This document shows, piece by piece, positions 10,879-35,273 of a DNA stretch of 64,000 bases. The notes below the pieces were generated by a model. The model was not told the DNA's origin. It did not search any database and saw nothing but the letters and a program-made list of their open reading frames with translations. Both the position numbers and the translations under genes were made by a program. Position 1 is the stretch's first letter. The number at the start of each line of letters is the position of its first letter. Source of the DNA: Candidatus Geothermocultor quzhuomuensis (GTDB lineage: Bacteria; Actinomycetota; Aquicultoria; Geothermocultorales; Geothermocultoraceae); the NCBI GenBank assembly GCA_015711795.1, contig JACVJC010000004.1, positions 36,692 to 100,691 of the forward strand, given 5' to 3'.

Positions 10879-11754
10879 ATGTCAACAATAAAAGCTATCT
10901 TTCAATCAATGAGACCTAAGCAATGGACAAAAAACCTCATTATTTTTGCTGCTCTCCTCTTTTCACAAAATATATACCGCTTTGAGCTATTAATTAAAGT
11001 TGTCTTCGCCTTCTTACTCTTTTGTCTTCTCTCAGGTTCAGTTTATATCCTTAATGATTTAAAAGATATAGAAAAAGACAAAACCCATCAAAATAAAAAG
11101 AAGAGACCTCTCCCTTCTGGCAAACTCAACCCCAAAATAGCTCTTGCCACATCTTGCATTCTTGTTACCTTCACTTTTGGTATTTCTTACCTTTTAAAGC
11201 CACTTTTTACTTTAGTCGCTTTTTTATATTTCCTTCTTCAAATGACTTACATTTTCTACTTAAAAGAAATAGTTATCCTAGATGTGATAACTATTGCAAC
11301 GGGTTTTGTCTTAAGAGCAATAGCCGGAGCAGTGGTTATCTCAGTAAGTTTTTCCCCATGGCTCCTTCTTTGTGCAAGCCTCCTTGCCCTTTTTCTTGGG
11401 CTTGCCAAACGACATCATGAACTTATCGTCCTTGAAGAAAATGCTTATAGCCACCGCCCCGTTCTTAAAGAATATTCCACTGCTCTTATCAGCGAAATGA
11501 CTTCTATGGTTACTTCTGCCACCATTGTTACTTATGCTCTTTACACTTTTTTCTCTAAAACAGCAGCAAAGACTCACTACCTCATGATGACTATTCCATT
11601 TGTTATTTATGGCCTTTTTCGCTATCTTTATCTTATGCATCAGAAAAAATTAGGAGGCAGTCCAGAAGAAATCTTACTTAGCGATAAACCTCTTATTGTT
11701 GATATAATTTTATGGCTTTTAACTATTACTATTGTTTTATATTTATTGAAATAG
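10879..11754 (+). CDS. UbiA-family prenyltransferase, decaprenyl-phosphate phosphoribosyltransferase-like
   Basis: MRPKQWTKNLIIFAALLFS and NDLKDIEKDKTHQNKKKRPLPSGKL (NDxxDxxxDxxH...KxRPxxxG). Confidence 0.8.
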   Translation: MSTIKAIFQSMRPKQWTKNLIIFAALLFSQNIYRFELLIKVVFAFLLFCLLSGSVYILNDLKDIEKDKTHQNKKKRPLPSGKLNPKIALATSCILVTFTFGISYLLKPLFTLVAFLYFLLQMTYIFYLKEIVILDVITIATGFVLRAIAGAVVISVSFSPWLLLCASLLALFLGLAKRHHELIVLEENAYSHRPVLKEYSTALISEMTSMVTSATIVTYALYTFFSKTAAKTHYLMMTIPFVIYGLFRYLYLMHQKKLGGSPEEILLSDKPLIVDIILWLLTITIVLYLLK

Positions 11755-11764
11755 GAGTTTATAT

Positions 11765-12844
11765 ATGCCAAGTAAAGTTGCAATCTTAAAAACAAAACCA
11801 AAGACAATTCTTCAAGATATTGAAAGAATAATGAAGCTGGCTGGGTTTGAAGAATTCTTATCCAAAAACAGCCCTACCATTCTTAAAGACAATATTTCCT
11901 GGCACTTTCCTTACCTCTCATCCAACACTACTCCTTGGCAGTTAGAAGGAGTAATTCAAGCTCTTCAAAAGGCTGGTTTTAAAGATATTGTTGCTGTTCA
12001 TAACAACACGGTAGTTACTAACCCCTTTAAAGGAGGAAAATTAAACAAGCTGGACAAAGTCTACCAAAAATATCAAATCGATGAACTTTATAACTTTATT
12101 CCAAAACAAATTAAATGGATTCCCTATAAACCTAAAGCAAAAATGATTGCCCTTGACAAGATTTTTCCTGAAGGCATTAGGATTCCAGAATTTTTCATTG
12201 GTAAAAACATAATTCACCTACCAACGGTAAAGACTCACATTTACACAACTACAACAGGGGCAATGAAAAATGCTTTTGGTGGGCTTCTAAACACTAAACG
12301 TCATTATACCCATACTTGGATTCATGAAACTTTGGTTGACCTTCTCTCAATTCAAAAAGAAATCCATAAAGGAATTTTTTGTGTTATGGATGGAACAATA
12401 TGCGGGAATGGTCCGGGGCCAAGAACAATGATTCCAGTCGAAAAAGACTATATCTTAGCTAGTGCTGACCAGGTGGCAATTGATGCTATATCAGCCAAGA
12501 TGATGGGCTTTAACCCAATGAGTATTAAGTATATCAGATTGGCTCATGAAAAAGGGCTTGGAATAGGAAATCCCTCAGAAATTGAATTGATTGGTGAAGA
12601 TATCACTAATGTTAACTTTGGCTTTAGAGTCGGGAAAAACCTCGTCTCCCGTATTGGTCATGGATTTTGGTTTAGCCCCTTAAAATTTTTTCAATATCTC
12701 TTCTTAAGGACCCCACTTGTTTATATTTTTGTTTTTAGTTCATATATCTATCACGACTATATCTGGTGGCCCCTTAAAGGTAAGTGGATACAAAAAAAGG
12801 TAAGAAAGGAAACTAAATGGGGAAAGCTCTTTGAGAGCTATTGA
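11765..12844 (+). CDS. DUF362 domain-containing protein
   Basis: IIHLPTVKTHIYTTTTGAMKNAFGGLL, VMDGTICGNGPGPRTMIPVEKDYILASADQVAIDAISAKMMGF. Confidence 0.85.
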   Translation: MPSKVAILKTKPKTILQDIERIMKLAGFEEFLSKNSPTILKDNISWHFPYLSSNTTPWQLEGVIQALQKAGFKDIVAVHNNTVVTNPFKGGKLNKLDKVYQKYQIDELYNFIPKQIKWIPYKPKAKMIALDKIFPEGIRIPEFFIGKNIIHLPTVKTHIYTTTTGAMKNAFGGLLNTKRHYTHTWIHETLVDLLSIQKEIHKGIFCVMDGTICGNGPGPRTMIPVEKDYILASADQVAIDAISAKMMGFNPMSIKYIRLAHEKGLGIGNPSEIELIGEDITNVNFGFRVGKNLVSRIGHGFWFSPLKFFQYLFLRTPLVYIFVFSSYIYHDYIWWPLKGKWIQKKVRKETKWGKLFESY

Positions 12845-26399: not shown

Positions 26400-27506
26400 T
26401 TAATCTCCCAAACTTAAAAATTTTAAGATGCCCTGAGCTATCCCTTGCGCAATCTTCCTCTGAAAATCAGGTTGATTTAATAATCTGTCCTCTTCAGGAT
26501 TGGTTAAAAAGCCAACTTCTACTAAAATAACAGGCACCCTTGACCAATTAAAGCCTGAAAGGTCGGAACGAGCAACTAATCCATTATCTTTTAAACCAGT
26601 AGACTTAACTAACTCACTTTGAACAAGTTTAGCTGCCTTAAAGCTCGCCTGATAAAACAATTCAGTCCATTTGTTTCTAGCTGGATATAAAGTTGAGGCA
26701 CCTCTTTGAGATGAATTAAGGCTACCGTCAGCATGTATCCTCACAAAGATTTGAACTCTATGTTTATTTGCTATGGCGGCTCTTTGAACATTGCTCAAAT
26801 TGACATTATCAGAAGTTCTAGTCATCACTACCTTAACCTTTTCCCTTTCTAAAACCTCCTTTAGCTTTAAAGCGATTTCCAAATTCACTTGAGATTCAGG
26901 TTTTTTAGTTAAAACTCCTTTCGTTCCCCCTCGGCATTTTTCTTTCATAACAGGGGAACCTGGACCTATTGGTTCAAGTTCCAAATTAGCCTTTCTTTGA
27001 TGACCGGGGTCTAAGCAAACAACATATGAGCTTTTCTTTTCTCTAATTTTTTCCTTTCTTACCTTCTCAAAAACCATTTTCTCATTGGAAGTATCACTAT
27101 CAGGAATGGTGACGCTAGCTCTAACTTTAATCTCGCTTTCTTCCCCAATTATCCAAACTACCCATCCCTCTTTAACTAACTCACCTGAAGAAGGCATCTG
27201 CCAAACAATTAAATGACTCTCCCGCCCCAAGTTTTCTTCCCACTTGAGCTTTAAATTAAGGTCTTTACAAATAATTTGAGCTTCATTTAATGTCTTACCT
27301 AACAAATTAGGCATAGGGAAATATCCCTTTTTTAACTCCTCTTCCTTTTTTTCTTTAGCTTCCTTTAATTCTTCTTTTAAAAAAGGTTTCCTTTGCTTAC
27401 CAGCACAAGCAAAAGATAAGAAAAAAAAGAAGAGAAAGAGAATAAAAAAGAAGAGAAATCTTTTTGTTGTTTTAAAAAAAATGAAAGAACTAGTTTTTAC
27501 CCTCAT
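26400..27506 (-). CDS. N-acetylmuramoyl-L-alanine amidase (Amidase_3) with N-terminal PASTA-like domain
   Basis: Lipoprotein-like/TM N-terminus, MPNLLGKTLNEAQIICKDLNLKL PASTA, VVCLDPGHQ..., IHADGSLNSSQRGASTLYP, VILVEVGFLTNPEED. Confidence 0.88.
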   Translation of the reverse strand: MRVKTSSFIFFKTTKRFLFFFILFLFFFFLSFACAGKQRKPFLKEELKEAKEKKEEELKKGYFPMPNLLGKTLNEAQIICKDLNLKLKWEENLGRESHLIVWQMPSSGELVKEGWVVWIIGEESEIKVRASVTIPDSDTSNEKMVFEKVRKEKIREKKSSYVVCLDPGHQRKANLELEPIGPGSPVMKEKCRGGTKGVLTKKPESQVNLEIALKLKEVLEREKVKVVMTRTSDNVNLSNVQRAAIANKHRVQIFVRIHADGSLNSSQRGASTLYPARNKWTELFYQASFKAAKLVQSELVKSTGLKDNGLVARSDLSGFNWSRVPVILVEVGFLTNPEEDRLLNQPDFQRKIAQGIAQGILKFLSLGD

Positions 27507-27847
27507 CTTAAATAATAATCAAAAGCATTCTTCAAGATAAGAACCGTTGAGAGAGAACCACTAACAGAAATTTTCCTTTGAAAAAAAAGGGGATCAAAAT
27601 CTAAAAAACCTAAATAAAGCAGCAAAAACCTCAAACCAGAACCTGAAAAAATTACCCTTGGCTTTGCATCAAACACTCTTGATAGCCCTCCTTTTTCAAT
27701 TTTAAAATAAAACAATTGAGATGAGCCTTTAAATGAAAAAGCTAAAACTTCCCCCTCAATTAATTGCAAATTCTTACTGAAATCTTTATTCTTATTAAGA
27801 GATGAGATAGCAAAAAGAACTAATTTTTCTCGTAATTTTTCAATCAT
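27503..27847 (-). CDS. SCP2 sterol-binding domain protein, UbiT-like
   Basis: LFFQRKISVSGSLSTVLILKNAFDYYL resembles the SCP2/UbiT C-terminal signature; overlaps the U32 gene. Confidence 0.7.
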   Translation of the reverse strand: MIEKLREKLVLFAISSLNKNKDFSKNLQLIEGEVLAFSFKGSSQLFYFKIEKGGLSRVFDAKPRVIFSGSGLRFLLLYLGFLDFDPLFFQRKISVSGSLSTVLILKNAFDYYLR

Positions 27848-28712
27848 ATTTCCTTACCATTGGTTGAGATTTTAACTTCTTGTTGCTTAAAGAAAAAAGA
27901 ATTTTTTTTGCTTTGCTTAAAGGAATTTTTTTACTAATAGCACCATCAATAGTTTCAACTATCTCTCTTACCTTTTCTATTAAGGGGTAAACTCTAAGAT
28001 ATTTTATCCCTAGTGCTTCTATCTCTGGTAAGTGTGATAAAAGAGAAAAAACTTTGCCACTATAAATAACCGTTCCATTGACTAAAAAAAGAGTTTTTCT
28101 CTCTAAGTTTTCTAATAACATCTCTTTAACTTTATAACAAGCAAAGCCACAAGTTTTTCTTTCTCTCCCAAAAGCTTTGGCCGTAAAACAGCACCAAGAA
28201 TAAGCTAAAGGAAAATGCCCATAAACAGGCAACTCCAAGGGAACTTTTAAAGATTTTGCTACTTTTTTTAAAGATTCAAAATTAAGGTCAAAACCTAAAA
28301 CTACTTGACTCGCTCCCCAACTTGCTAAAATTTCAGCATCGATGGGATTATAAATATTCAAAGTTGGACCTATAGTCAAAGGCATTTGGTAATACTGCCT
28401 TTGAATAAAATTTAAAAAACCAAGGCTGTTGACTTCTACTCCATCCGCTAGTTTCATAAGTCGGTTATTTCTTTTAAAGTCTTCTTTTGTGGTAGCCAAA
28501 ACTTGAGTTGAAAAAATAACCTCTTTACCTCCTCTCTCTAAGAAATCTCTTATTCTTGAAAAAAGTTTTCTATCTAAAACCTCCCTCTTGCTACAGCCAA
28601 TCTCACCAACATAAACTCTTCCAACTTGAGGTAAAGAGGCAACTTCTTGATAAAAATGGATTAACTTTTCCTCCCCAAAATTGGTGGGAATAGGACCAAT
28701 TGATATCTTCAT
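27840..28712 (-). CDS. Peptidase U32 family protein, UbiV-like
   Basis: VYVGEIGCSKREVL and WCCFTAKAFGRERKTCGFACYKV (C-X12-C-X3-C) U32 Fe-S cysteines. Confidence 0.8.
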   Translation of the reverse strand: MKISIGPIPTNFGEEKLIHFYQEVASLPQVGRVYVGEIGCSKREVLDRKLFSRIRDFLERGGKEVIFSTQVLATTKEDFKRNNRLMKLADGVEVNSLGFLNFIQRQYYQMPLTIGPTLNIYNPIDAEILASWGASQVVLGFDLNFESLKKVAKSLKVPLELPVYGHFPLAYSWCCFTAKAFGRERKTCGFACYKVKEMLLENLERKTLFLVNGTVIYSGKVFSLLSHLPEIEALGIKYLRVYPLIEKVREIVETIDGAISKKIPLSKAKKILFSLSNKKLKSQPMVRKYD

Positions 28713-29713
28713 TTAGTTAAAAAACAACCTAAAGTAAATTTTTCTCGGGCAAAAAGGGCATCAAGCCTTTTTTGCCAAACTTCCTCCACCTTATAAGTAG
28801 CAGGGTTATCAAAGTAAACTTTGAGTGCTTGCTGAAAAATAAAGGTAGATTCTTTAATGAACCTTTTTGAGCCTTGGCGACCCTCAATAATAACAGTGTC
28901 AATCCCTGTTTTAATAAGTTGAGGAAAGATAGATAAAGCATTAAGCAAAAGAGGACTTTGAAAAGAATAACCCTTTTCACCTGTGAAAAGATTGAAATAT
29001 TTTCCCCGACAGGGAGTTGGATAATAACAAAGTTCTTCAGGTGAAAGTTCATTTAAGAGATAGCCATTAAGTCTCATTTTTAAAATCCCATCTTCATTCC
29101 CTAATTCAACTAACTCAGTAGGAGAACAAAGACTTAAACTATTATCAGAAATATTTGTGAAATAAGAAGAAAGAAGACATCGGCCTTCATAATTAATACA
29201 AATAGGACCAAAAACAAATACTTCTAACTCAAGATTGGAAAAGTCTCTAATTTCTTTAATTTCATCAAGGGTTAAAACTTGTGGAAGAATAACTCCTTTA
29301 ATCTTAAACTTTCTCTCAAATAACTTTATCGATTCTAAATTAGAAGCTCCAGCCCGAGCGCTAAGCCAAATAGGTAAGCTGGGAAAATTCTCCGAAGTAT
29401 ATTTGAGAAGAGCTAAATCAGCTAGGATAATTCCATCCATTTTTAGATGATAAGCTGTTTCAATAGCCTTAAAACACTCATCAATTTGGAGAAATTGGGG
29501 GAAAAGGTCAAGGATAAGGCAAATTTCAACCTTTTTTGAATGAGCATAATCTATCCCTGCTTTGAGATCACCTAGCGAGAGTTTCGAGCCAGAGAAATGG
29601 TAAATACTAATTGGCAAACTTAAACTAGTGTAAACACCATCAACCCCTTGTTCAACAGCTTTTTTTAGACTTGGAAGACCGCCTGTGACTACCTTCAGCT
29701 TTGTCTTCTTCAT
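28709..29713 (-). CDS. Peptidase U32 family protein, UbiU-like
   Basis: VFVFGPICINYEGRCLLSSYFTNISDNSLSLC...PTPCRGKYFNLF; IEGRQGSKRF. Confidence 0.85.
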   Translation of the reverse strand: MKKTKLKVVTGGLPSLKKAVEQGVDGVYTSLSLPISIYHFSGSKLSLGDLKAGIDYAHSKKVEICLILDLFPQFLQIDECFKAIETAYHLKMDGIILADLALLKYTSENFPSLPIWLSARAGASNLESIKLFERKFKIKGVILPQVLTLDEIKEIRDFSNLELEVFVFGPICINYEGRCLLSSYFTNISDNSLSLCSPTELVELGNEDGILKMRLNGYLLNELSPEELCYYPTPCRGKYFNLFTGEKGYSFQSPLLLNALSIFPQLIKTGIDTVIIEGRQGSKRFIKESTFIFQQALKVYFDNPATYKVEEVWQKRLDALFAREKFTLGCFLTK

Positions 29714-29800: not shown

Positions 29801-30286
29801 TTAAATCTTTCCAATCTTCTTTATTTCACCTTCTTTTAACTTGAGTTCCATTGCTTTTTGGACTAATTTTTTTTCAAAGGGAGACAACTTTGGAGAAAAA
29901 ATTTCAACTAGAGGAAGAAGAACAAAACTCCGTTTAAATAAACCAGGATGAGGAAGAGCTAAATTTTTTTCATCAAGAGATAAATCTTCATAAAGTAAGA
30001 TATCAATATCGATAAGGCGAGGTCCCCAGCGAATAGTTCTTTGACGTCCCATTTTTTTCTCAATCTTTTGACAAAGCTTTAAAAGTTCTTGAGGTGAAAG
30101 GGAAGTCTCAACTTTAATAACAATATTGTAAAAGTCTTCCTGCTCAAGACAACCATAAGGTTTTGTTTGATAAAGAGAGGATTTTTTCTCTATCTTGATT
30201 CCTGATTGAGAAAGAAGCTCAAGAGCTTTCTTTAAATTTCCTTTTTTATCTCCTAAATTTGACCCTAACCCTAAATAAATTCCCAC
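29801..30286 (-). CDS. folK: 2-amino-4-hydroxy-6-hydroxymethyldihydropteridine pyrophosphokinase
   Basis: YLGLGSNLGDKKGNLKKAL, RWGPRLIDIDILLYED, LPHPGLFKRSFVLLPL. Confidence 0.96.
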   Translation of the reverse strand: MGIYLGLGSNLGDKKGNLKKALELLSQSGIKIEKKSSLYQTKPYGCLEQEDFYNIVIKVETSLSPQELLKLCQKIEKKMGRQRTIRWGPRLIDIDILLYEDLSLDEKNLALPHPGLFKRSFVLLPLVEIFSPKLSPFEKKLVQKAMELKLKEGEIKKIGKI

Positions 30287-30317: not shown

Positions 30318-31238
30318 TTATCTTCTCCCATGACAGCTCAAACAATATGAAGACTTGTGACACAAAAGACAATGAGAATTTCCTATTCTCCCAACCGTGC
30401 GTCGATGGACGCTTCGCCACGACTCTCTCTTCGGGTCATAACCTGGATGATGACACTTCTCACAATAATAAGGGTCGGGGTGGCACTTCTTGCACAAACC
30501 AAATAATCTCTTTTCTCTTTGGTGTAAACGAATCCAATTAGAAATATGAGGCATTTCCATCCCGTGACAAGCTAAACAATCTTTTTTCTCATAATGACAA
30601 AAAAGACAAGGTTTGTCATCTTTCTTAGCTTTCTTCCCATGTTTTCTTCTCCAATCTAAGATATCATGACTCTTAGGTGTAATTTTAAATTCCGAAGTAT
30701 GACAAACATTACATTCCCGAGGAGCCTTTTTCCCATCATGACATTTCATACACTCACTCATTTTCATCCGATTGTAATAACCATCCATCCCAGGATGACC
30801 CACTCGATTATGGCAATAAGCACAAGTTAACTTACCCTTATGAGCATCGTGGTTGATAATCATCCCTTCCCGGGGAGTTACTTTAACAAGAGAGTGGCAA
30901 TTAAGACAGTTATTCTCAGGTAGTTTCTTACTAAGTTCACTATTTTTATTTATTGGTTCTTCAAAACCTCTAAAATGATTATAAAGTTCTTTAAGGGTCG
31001 CCAGTTTGTGAATCAATAAATTTAAAACTCCTGGCTCAATATGACAGGAAACGCAATTAATCTCTTGGTGGGAAGAGCTTTCCCAAGCTTGATAATCTTT
31101 CCTCATTTCATGGCAGGTATTGCAGAAAGAAGATTGCATTGTATATAAAATTACTCCAATCGATAAGATTAAAGCAAAAAGGATAAAATAAAAAAGAAGA
31201 CAAAACTTTTGAAAAAGATTAAGTTTCTCCATTCCCAT
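30318..31238 (-). CDS. Membrane-anchored multiheme c-type cytochrome (NapC/NirT-like N-terminus), 12 CXXCH motifs
   Basis: One N-terminal TM then CNTCH, CVSCH, CLNCH, CAYCH, CMKCH, CNVCH, CLFCH, CLACH, CKKCH, CEKCH, CLLCH, CLSCH. Confidence 0.93.
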   Translation of the reverse strand: MGMEKLNLFQKFCLLFYFILFALILSIGVILYTMQSSFCNTCHEMRKDYQAWESSSHQEINCVSCHIEPGVLNLLIHKLATLKELYNHFRGFEEPINKNSELSKKLPENNCLNCHSLVKVTPREGMIINHDAHKGKLTCAYCHNRVGHPGMDGYYNRMKMSECMKCHDGKKAPRECNVCHTSEFKITPKSHDILDWRRKHGKKAKKDDKPCLFCHYEKKDCLACHGMEMPHISNWIRLHQREKRLFGLCKKCHPDPYYCEKCHHPGYDPKRESWRSVHRRTVGRIGNSHCLLCHKSSYCLSCHGRR

Positions 31239-34067: not shown

Positions 34068-35273
34068 TTACCTGCTTCTCAAGATGGCATCAGCCATTCT
34101 AGCAGCTCGTACTCCTTCCTTAACGTCGTGGAGTCTTAAGATGTTTGCACCTTCCCAAATTGCCAAGGTTGATACAGCAATGGTTCCTTCCAATCTCTCC
34201 TCGACGGGAAGGTTTAGAGTAAAGCCAATGAAAGATTTTCGAGAAGGCCCAACTAGAATAGGTTGCCCCAAACTTTTAAATTCAGATAATCTTCTAATCA
34301 GCTCTAAGTTGTGCTCTTTTGTTTTGCCAAAGCCAATACCTGGATCGATAATAATACTTTCCTTTCTAACTCCTCCATCAGTAGCCTTCTTTACTTGGTC
34401 GCTCAGAAAGCGATAAATCTCAGAAATAACATCTTCATAAACTGGATTTTGTTGCATATCTTTGGGTGTCCCTTTCATATGCATAATCACAATAGGAACT
34501 CCTTCTTCTGCTACCAGCTCAAGCATCCTTGGAAACCTTAAACCATAAATATCATTAATCATCGAAGCTCCAGCCTCAAGGGCAGCTTTGGCAACTTCAG
34601 GCTTATAAGTATCGATAGAGATAGGAATCTTTTTTGACTTTCTAATTCCTTCGATTACTGGAATAACTCGATTAAGTTCTTCATCTAGGGAGATAGGTTC
34701 TGAGCCAGGGCGAGTTGATTCTCCACCCACATCGATGATGTCTGCTCCTTCTTCAGCCATCTCTAAGCCATGCTCAATTGCTAAATTTTTCGAGAAAAAC
34801 TTTCCGCCGTCAGAGAAAGAATCAGGGGTAACATTTAAAATCCCCATTATGTATGTTTTTTTAGAAAAATCAAATTTAAAACCTTTTCCTTTTAAAGGTG
34901 AAGGAAAGTTAGCAAAATTTTTAAGGGCATTTTTTATCTCCAAAGCCAGAGTGGGAAGGTTAAAATATTGCCCACTTAACTTTTCACAAAGATTCTCAAG
35001 TTGAGTTAAAGTGCCGAGTAAAAGAAGATCAGTTTTCTTTTCTTTAAGAGTAAAAGTTCCTCGTGAAATAGCAGCTTCTCCACCACGAGCAAGCATTTCT
35101 TGTTTAAGAATGAGAGCAGCCTTTATATCAAGAGCTTCTACTTTAATCGCTCGGAAAATCCCTTTCCGAGACATAATCTCAATTCCTGGAGCATCAACTT
35201 TAATCCGAGATAACTCTTTTTTAATCTCAGCTTCACTATCAACCTTTACCACCCGTGGATAATGATTCATCAA
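34068..35273 (-). CDS. folP: Dihydropteroate synthase with N-terminal extension
   Basis: IMGILNVTPDSFSDGGKF, DVGGESTRPGSEPIS, DPGIGFGKT. Confidence 0.95.
   Translation of the reverse strand: MMNHYPRVVKVDSEAEIKKELSRIKVDAPGIEIMSRKGIFRAIKVEALDIKAALILKQEMLARGGEAAISRGTFTLKEKKTDLLLLGTLTQLENLCEKLSGQYFNLPTLALEIKNALKNFANFPSPLKGKGFKFDFSKKTYIMGILNVTPDSFSDGGKFFSKNLAIEHGLEMAEEGADIIDVGGESTRPGSEPISLDEELNRVIPVIEGIRKSKKIPISIDTYKPEVAKAALEAGASMINDIYGLRFPRMLELVAEEGVPIVIMHMKGTPKDMQQNPVYEDVISEIYRFLSDQVKKATDGGVRKESIIIDPGIGFGKTKEHNLELIRRLSEFKSLGQPILVGPSRKSFIGFTLNLPVEERLEGTIAVSTLAIWEGANILRLHDVKEGVRAARMADAILRSR

Follow-up and report, generated by a model that had tools for sequence, protein, structure and literature searches.

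The window analysed here is a 64,000-nucleotide stretch of contig JACVJC010000004.1 (positions 36,692 to 100,691) from the genome of Candidatus Geothermocultor quzhuomuensis (Actinomycetota). On its minus strand, at positions 27503-29713, we identified three overlapping genes related to ubiU, ubiV and ubiT, whose products in E. coli (YhbU/YhbV/YhbT) carry out O2-independent ubiquinone hydroxylation (PMC6747719, PMC10470549). The overlaps are 4 bp (ubiU/ubiV) and 8 bp (ubiV/ubiT).

28709..29713, minus strand: UbiU-type U32 protein, 334 amino acids (Pfam, NCBIfam, tree, predicted fold)
27840..28712, minus strand: UbiV-type U32 protein, 290 amino acids (Pfam, NCBIfam, tree)
27503..27847, minus strand: UbiT-type SCP2 protein, 114 amino acids (Pfam, NCBIfam, predicted fold)

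Family assignment and iron-sulfur ligands

Both U32 proteins matched Pfam Peptidase_U32 (E-values of 9.9e-46 for the UbiU-type and 9.8e-20 for the UbiV-type protein), and the 114-amino-acid protein matched Pfam SCP2 (8e-8). The best NCBIfam families were UbiU (275 bits, cut-off 440) and UbiV (192 bits, cut-off 275). Both scores are under the curated cut-offs, as are those of UbiU and UbiV from relatives with intact sites. The small protein passed the NCBIfam UbiT cut-off marginally (47.3 vs 46.9 bits) and retains the DxD-x2-FFxR...KN core motif of UbiT. Its predicted fold has UbiJ-SCP2, a ubiquinone-synthesis protein, as all seven best PDB matches. The predicted UbiU fold is a beta/alpha barrel with the U32 protein 5D88 as top PDB match; a PDB search with the UbiU and UbiV sequences gave no match.

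In E. coli, C169/C176/C193/C232 of UbiU and C39/C180/C193/C197 of UbiV were shown experimentally to be the ligands of two [4Fe-4S] clusters (PMC6747719). The corresponding residues are C172-X6-C179-X16-C196-X38-C235 in the window UbiU and C40/C175/C188/C192 in the window UbiV, with all eight iron-sulfur (Fe-S) cysteines (8/8) retained across the two proteins. One Glu and two Cys are essential in the RNA hydroxylases TrhP and RlhA (PMC6599085), and their counterparts in the window UbiU are E164, C172 and C179.

In a tree of 59 U32 proteins (IQ-TREE), the window UbiV falls inside the UbiV clade (100/99), grouped with relatives from its class (100/98). The window UbiU groups with the proteins of genomes G003 and G020 (96/86), within a clade of UbiU and a sister group (97/95) and separate from TrhP and RlhA. 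Given the long branch and unusual composition of this protein, its closest neighbour within that clade is placed with less certainty. An RNA-hydroxylase identity was rejected for either U32 protein by approximately unbiased (AU) tests of a forced grouping with TrhP/RlhA (p-AU 9e-6 and 3e-7), and the score to the curated TrhP model was 122.6 bits against a cut-off of 534.

By phylogeny, profiles and fold, the triad thus consists of genuine relatives of UbiU, UbiV and UbiT. A first-pass annotation, made by a model from the letters alone, had described these three overlapping minus-strand genes exactly, had given the E. coli cysteine positions correctly and matched them to the window proteins, and had called the small open reading frame SCP2; its expectation that the U32 pair belongs with UbiU and UbiV, not with the RNA hydroxylases, is borne out by the tree.

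An altered UbiU active site

Among 16 other UbiU proteins we found 49 invariant columns, 19 of which are changed in the window UbiU. When each of the other proteins was left out in turn, it deviated at 0-8 such columns (0 for G003 and G020, 2-8 for the copies in genome G006). At most of the 19 changed positions, conservation extends to the RNA hydroxylases and to a sister U32 pair described below. In E. coli numbering, the conserved P6, A7, A21, G27, R35, N66 and A91 are replaced by V, T, V, S, Y, D and G, and H113, R142, G191, K270, Y280, D293 and Y326 by W, Q, S, I, F, K and F. The protein retains its Fe-S ligands and the motif Glu (E164) and has lost most of the polar residues common to all compared U32 hydroxylases. 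The window UbiV is changed at 4 of 23 otherwise invariant columns.

Active sites of TIM barrels lie at the C-terminal ends of the barrel strands, and several of the changed UbiU residues are at or just past these ends in the predicted model (residues 9-10, 30, 69, 145 and 275). Prephenate is the reported oxygen donor of the U32 hydroxylase family (review PMC11574389). As Arg, His and Lys are gone from the shared site, the sequence makes unchanged prephenate chemistry in this UbiU doubtful. Cys spacing by itself does not prove hydroxylase chemistry, because the window UbiU has lost residues common to all compared U32 hydroxylases. The set in this genome appears to be derived, either repurposed or decaying, and we prefer the former, given that no cluster ligand has been lost and the operon is still whole.

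Inheritance, relatives and quinone genes

Downstream of the triad is an amidase-tilS-hpt-ftsH-folE run, and folK is directly upstream, preceded by a multiheme cytochrome with 12 CxxCH motifs and a NapC/NirT-type N-terminus.

26400..27506, minus strand: N-acetylmuramoyl-L-alanine amidase, 4 bp overlap with ubiT, a neighbour kept in G003
29801..30286, minus strand: folK, a neighbour between the cytochrome and ubiU
30318..31238, minus strand: 12-haem NapC/NirT-type membrane cytochrome, at the head of the triad's directon

Genome G003, from another family of the same class, has the same order UbiU-UbiV-UbiT-amidase-tilS-ftsH-folE, to which the window adds hpt. Protein identities between the two are 34% for UbiT, 40% for UbiV, 43% for UbiU and 72-75% for FtsH/FolE. 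Given this shared order in a related family, we infer that the triad was inherited vertically, in place, and kept as an operon. Strong UbiV matches among 398 genomes drawn from the phylum occurred only in this class (six genomes from four families).

The cytochrome is, by its family, a possible quinol-oxidising partner. FNR-like sites are not enriched in the 64-kb window (88 two-mismatch matches vs 75 expected), and the predicted fold of the folK-ubiU gap is unremarkable. Elsewhere in the window (10879-12844, plus strand), a decaprenyl-phosphate phosphoribosyltransferase is followed by a DUF362 protein within a large cell-surface polysaccharide region.

Several relatives carry the triad, or parts of it, with quinone genes. 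In G003 and G020 it occurs alongside futalosine genes, which were also found in G002; the mqn genes of G003 occupy one locus of ~10 kb. A single PF02621 protein (on inspection MqnA-like in G002 and G003) is found beside two MqnC/MqnE-family proteins in G002-G004, G009, G010, G016 and other genomes of the class. MqnD seems to be missing from these genomes, which otherwise have the futalosine pathway.

Genome G006 (89% complete) has three UbiU copies among menaquinone-type genes. One strand of L021:5244-13333 encodes UbiD, an MqnE-like radical-SAM protein, UbiU, UbiV, a second MqnE-like protein, UbiU and an MqnP-like prenyltransferase, and another contig (L022:122-4688) encodes UbiD-UbiX-UbiU-UbiT-prenyl synthase. 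MqnA/D were not found in this genome. At L004:2044-2046 (minus strand) of G002, an in-frame TGA occupies exactly the codon of UbiU's first Fe-S Cys (C169), with the remaining frame intact. It may encode a selenocysteine ligand, mark an inactivation or be a base error; no stable hairpin follows directly (z +0.6).

A second cassette has a UbiA-family prenyltransferase, a UbiE/MpqE-like methyltransferase, a UbiV-like U32 protein and a UbiU-like U32 protein in a row. We identified it at L147:6763-10434 (plus strand) and at L149, L146, L148, L153 and L155 (minus strand), in other families of the class and in the phylum-mate G038, which also encodes two WhiB proteins, a sign that the phylum is probably Actinomycetota. 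The class genomes with this cassette had no detected MqnA/D or MqnC/E. In the tree, its U32 pair is sister to UbiV (100/100) and UbiU (97/95), and the cysteines of the two proteins align with the Fe-S ligands, except that a wider alignment leaves the fourth UbiU Cys unaligned, and that ligand is uncertain. The cassette appears to be a quinone or prenyl-lipid operon not described before.

For the genome of the window (1.76 Mb, 38 contigs, 100% complete by markers), we surveyed the assembly by searches and in chosen stretches. MqnA/MqnD, UbiD and MenB were not found, and no MqnC/MqnE/CofH match was over cut-off; genes required for both recognised menaquinone head-group routes (MenB for Men; MqnA/D and MqnC/E for futalosine) are thus among those not found. 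No UbiA/MqnP-type prenyltransferase was detected: the three UbiA-family proteins are a heme O synthase, a MenA-like protein (89.9 bits, cut-off 102) and a decaprenyl-phosphate phosphoribosyltransferase. Of a ubiquinone pathway, neither UbiD nor a ubiquinone-type UbiA was found (UbiC, UbiG, UbiB and UbiX were not searched for). The U32 content is one UbiU-model match and one UbiV-model match, with no TrhP-like copy, and no heme-copper oxidase was found. A heme O synthase over cut-off was seen at L040:7524-8387 (minus strand) of genome G000, though that genome has no heme-copper oxidase match.

Quinone use by the cell is nevertheless likely, because complex I genes, a long-chain prenyl synthase, UbiE/MenG (over cut-off) and the 12-haem cytochrome are present. 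The prenyl synthase shares its locus with a B12 radical-SAM protein and an amidohydrolase, and this locus is kept in G003. In the two genomes (L165:10415-15616, minus strand; L167:6934-12603, plus strand), the conserved locus comprises a second, weak prenyl-synthase-like protein, a TIGR04190 B12 radical-SAM protein, a HepT-type synthase and an amidohydrolase.

Probable function and comparison with known systems

The reading we favour, with about even confidence, is that the triad is a vertically inherited UbiUVT-type set whose substrate is a non-ubiquinone polyprenylated quinone or a quinone precursor, and that it exists in this genome in a derived version. UbiU and UbiV would pair as a heterodimer, each subunit holding one [4Fe-4S] cluster, and UbiT would be the SCP2 carrier that presents the lipid. 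Ancestrally, such sets in the class probably hydroxylated the ring of a (mena)quinone-type molecule without O2. In this genome the Fe-S sites, the motif Glu and the operon would have been retained while the active-site face of UbiU was rebuilt, and for that reason a change of substrate, or of oxygen donor (prephenate in E. coli), is probable.

The link to quinones comes from the relatives, in which we found the triad with futalosine genes (G003/G020), the UbiD/MqnP clusters of G006 and the sister pair in UbiA-UbiE operons. On these sequence associations, O2-independent hydroxylation of a non-ubiquinone quinone, with UbiT as lipid carrier, would be the best-supported function of the family in the class. 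Several points weigh against extending it to the window: the substrate is deduced from relatives only, the triad here does not adjoin quinone genes, and the loss of residues common to all U32 hydroxylases could mean that no hydroxylation takes place at all. Moreover, the genome shows no head-group pathway that would point to a particular quinone.

The first-pass annotation had suggested hydroxylation of a different quinone or another lipophilic substrate by an anaerobe. Another quinone is the best reading here too, and the heme-copper oxidase result agrees with an anaerobe, yet the same hydroxylase chemistry, as implied by the Cys spacing, is not supported by the altered UbiU. It had seen no ubiquinone gene, which the genome-wide search upheld for UbiD and UbiA, and the survey that it proposed of ubi/men/mqn genes and triad conservation gave no head-group genes here and the triad with futalosine genes in class relatives. 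As to the neighbours on which it drew, folK and the multiheme cytochrome are upstream as described, but folP (34068-35273) is not next to the triad.

That the set is a decaying relic is unlikely, though it has to be weighed. The lineage would have lost quinone ring synthesis, leaving an unneeded triad to lose function, UbiU first. This fits the 19 of 49 invariant residues lost, the head-group genes not found and the branches of both subunits, which are longer than those of G003 (UbiU 1.96 vs 1.45 to GWC2; UbiV 2.95 vs 2.26 to G006). However, the frames are full-length and the overlapping operon is intact, as are the UbiT core motif, the motif Glu and all eight Fe-S ligands, an outcome not expected of drift.

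Rather improbable is a gap in the assembly, by which this would be a menaquinone producer like G003, with its futalosine cluster in an unassembled stretch and the triad modifying menaquinone or an unknown quinone as there. With 38 contigs, one gap could remove a G003-like ~10 kb mqn locus, and UbiE and the prenyl-synthase locus are retained. Yet the assembly is 100% complete by markers, MqnA/D, MqnC/E, UbiD and an MqnP-type UbiA are all missing together, and the changed UbiU site would be left unexplained.

We consider it very unlikely that the proteins are RNA hydroxylases (TrhP/RlhA-like) or peptidases with an SCP2 gene adjacent by chance. UbiU could have taken the RNA job in a genome with single UbiU- and UbiV-model matches and no TrhP-like copy, but the AU tests and the low TrhP score argue against this, the residues lost are those shared with the RNA hydroxylases, and the SCP2 gene overlaps in the same operon. 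A full ubiquinone pathway, which would make the set ordinary, is hardly credible: the triad and UbiE are present, but UbiD was not found and the three UbiA-family proteins have other assignments.

More tentatively than our reading of the triad itself, we suggest that UbiUV-type Fe-S hydroxylases are not ubiquinone-specific, that with the sister U32 pair they hydroxylate other quinones in the class, and that quinone synthesis or modification in this organism follows a head-group route outside the known pathways, with a UbiU departing from the canonical active site. In a 2019 survey, ubiTUV co-occurred only in genomes with ubiquinone potential (PMC6747719), and in a 2026 survey ubiquinone synthesis outside Pseudomonadota was reported only in the Desulfobacterota class GWC2-55-46 (PMC13386864). 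Full-text searches of open-licence papers turned up neither the UbiA-UbiE-U32-U32 cassette nor UbiUV in Actinomycetota, though this does not prove that such reports are absent. The occurrence of a triad in another phylum, beside menaquinone-type genes or in a genome showing no known head-group pathway, breaks the link between ubiTUV and ubiquinone, and ubiTUV alone is therefore unusable as a ubiquinone marker. Should the pair act on other quinones, ring hydroxylation without O2 by U32 heterodimers may predate ubiquinone and reach beyond it, and hydroxylated or unusual anaerobic quinones would be expected, directly detectable by lipid profiling.

Compared with UbiU-UbiV-UbiT of E. coli, the window has the same three families in adjacent genes, the eight Fe-S ligands, the SCP2 core motif and the motif Glu. 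It differs in that its UbiU is 33% identical to E. coli UbiU and has lost most family-conserved polar residues, its UbiT, at just 114 amino acids, is shorter than proteobacterial UbiT, and a ubiquinone pathway was not found. The triad is homologous to UbiUVT and may work alike. It should not be filed under a ubiquinone-specific system, since the pathway was not found, the UbiU active-site residues are altered and UbiU and UbiV score below their curated cut-offs.

The UbiTUV of GWC2-55-46 (PMC13386864) likewise lies outside Pseudomonadota, but in a different phylum from ours and with a complete ubiquinone pathway, validated in E. coli, of a kind not found here. TrhP (YegQ) and RlhA (YdcP), which are prephenate-dependent RNA hydroxylases (PMC6599085), share the U32 fold and the counterparts of the essential Glu and two Cys. 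In contrast to the window proteins, they form separate clades and have no SCP2 partner, and the window UbiU lacks the polar residues that they share with UbiU. The triads of G003, G020 and G015 belong to the same clades as ours, which shares gene order and neighbours with G003, whereas in G003, G020 and G006 the UbiU residues remain canonical, and futalosine genes or UbiD/MqnP clusters are present.

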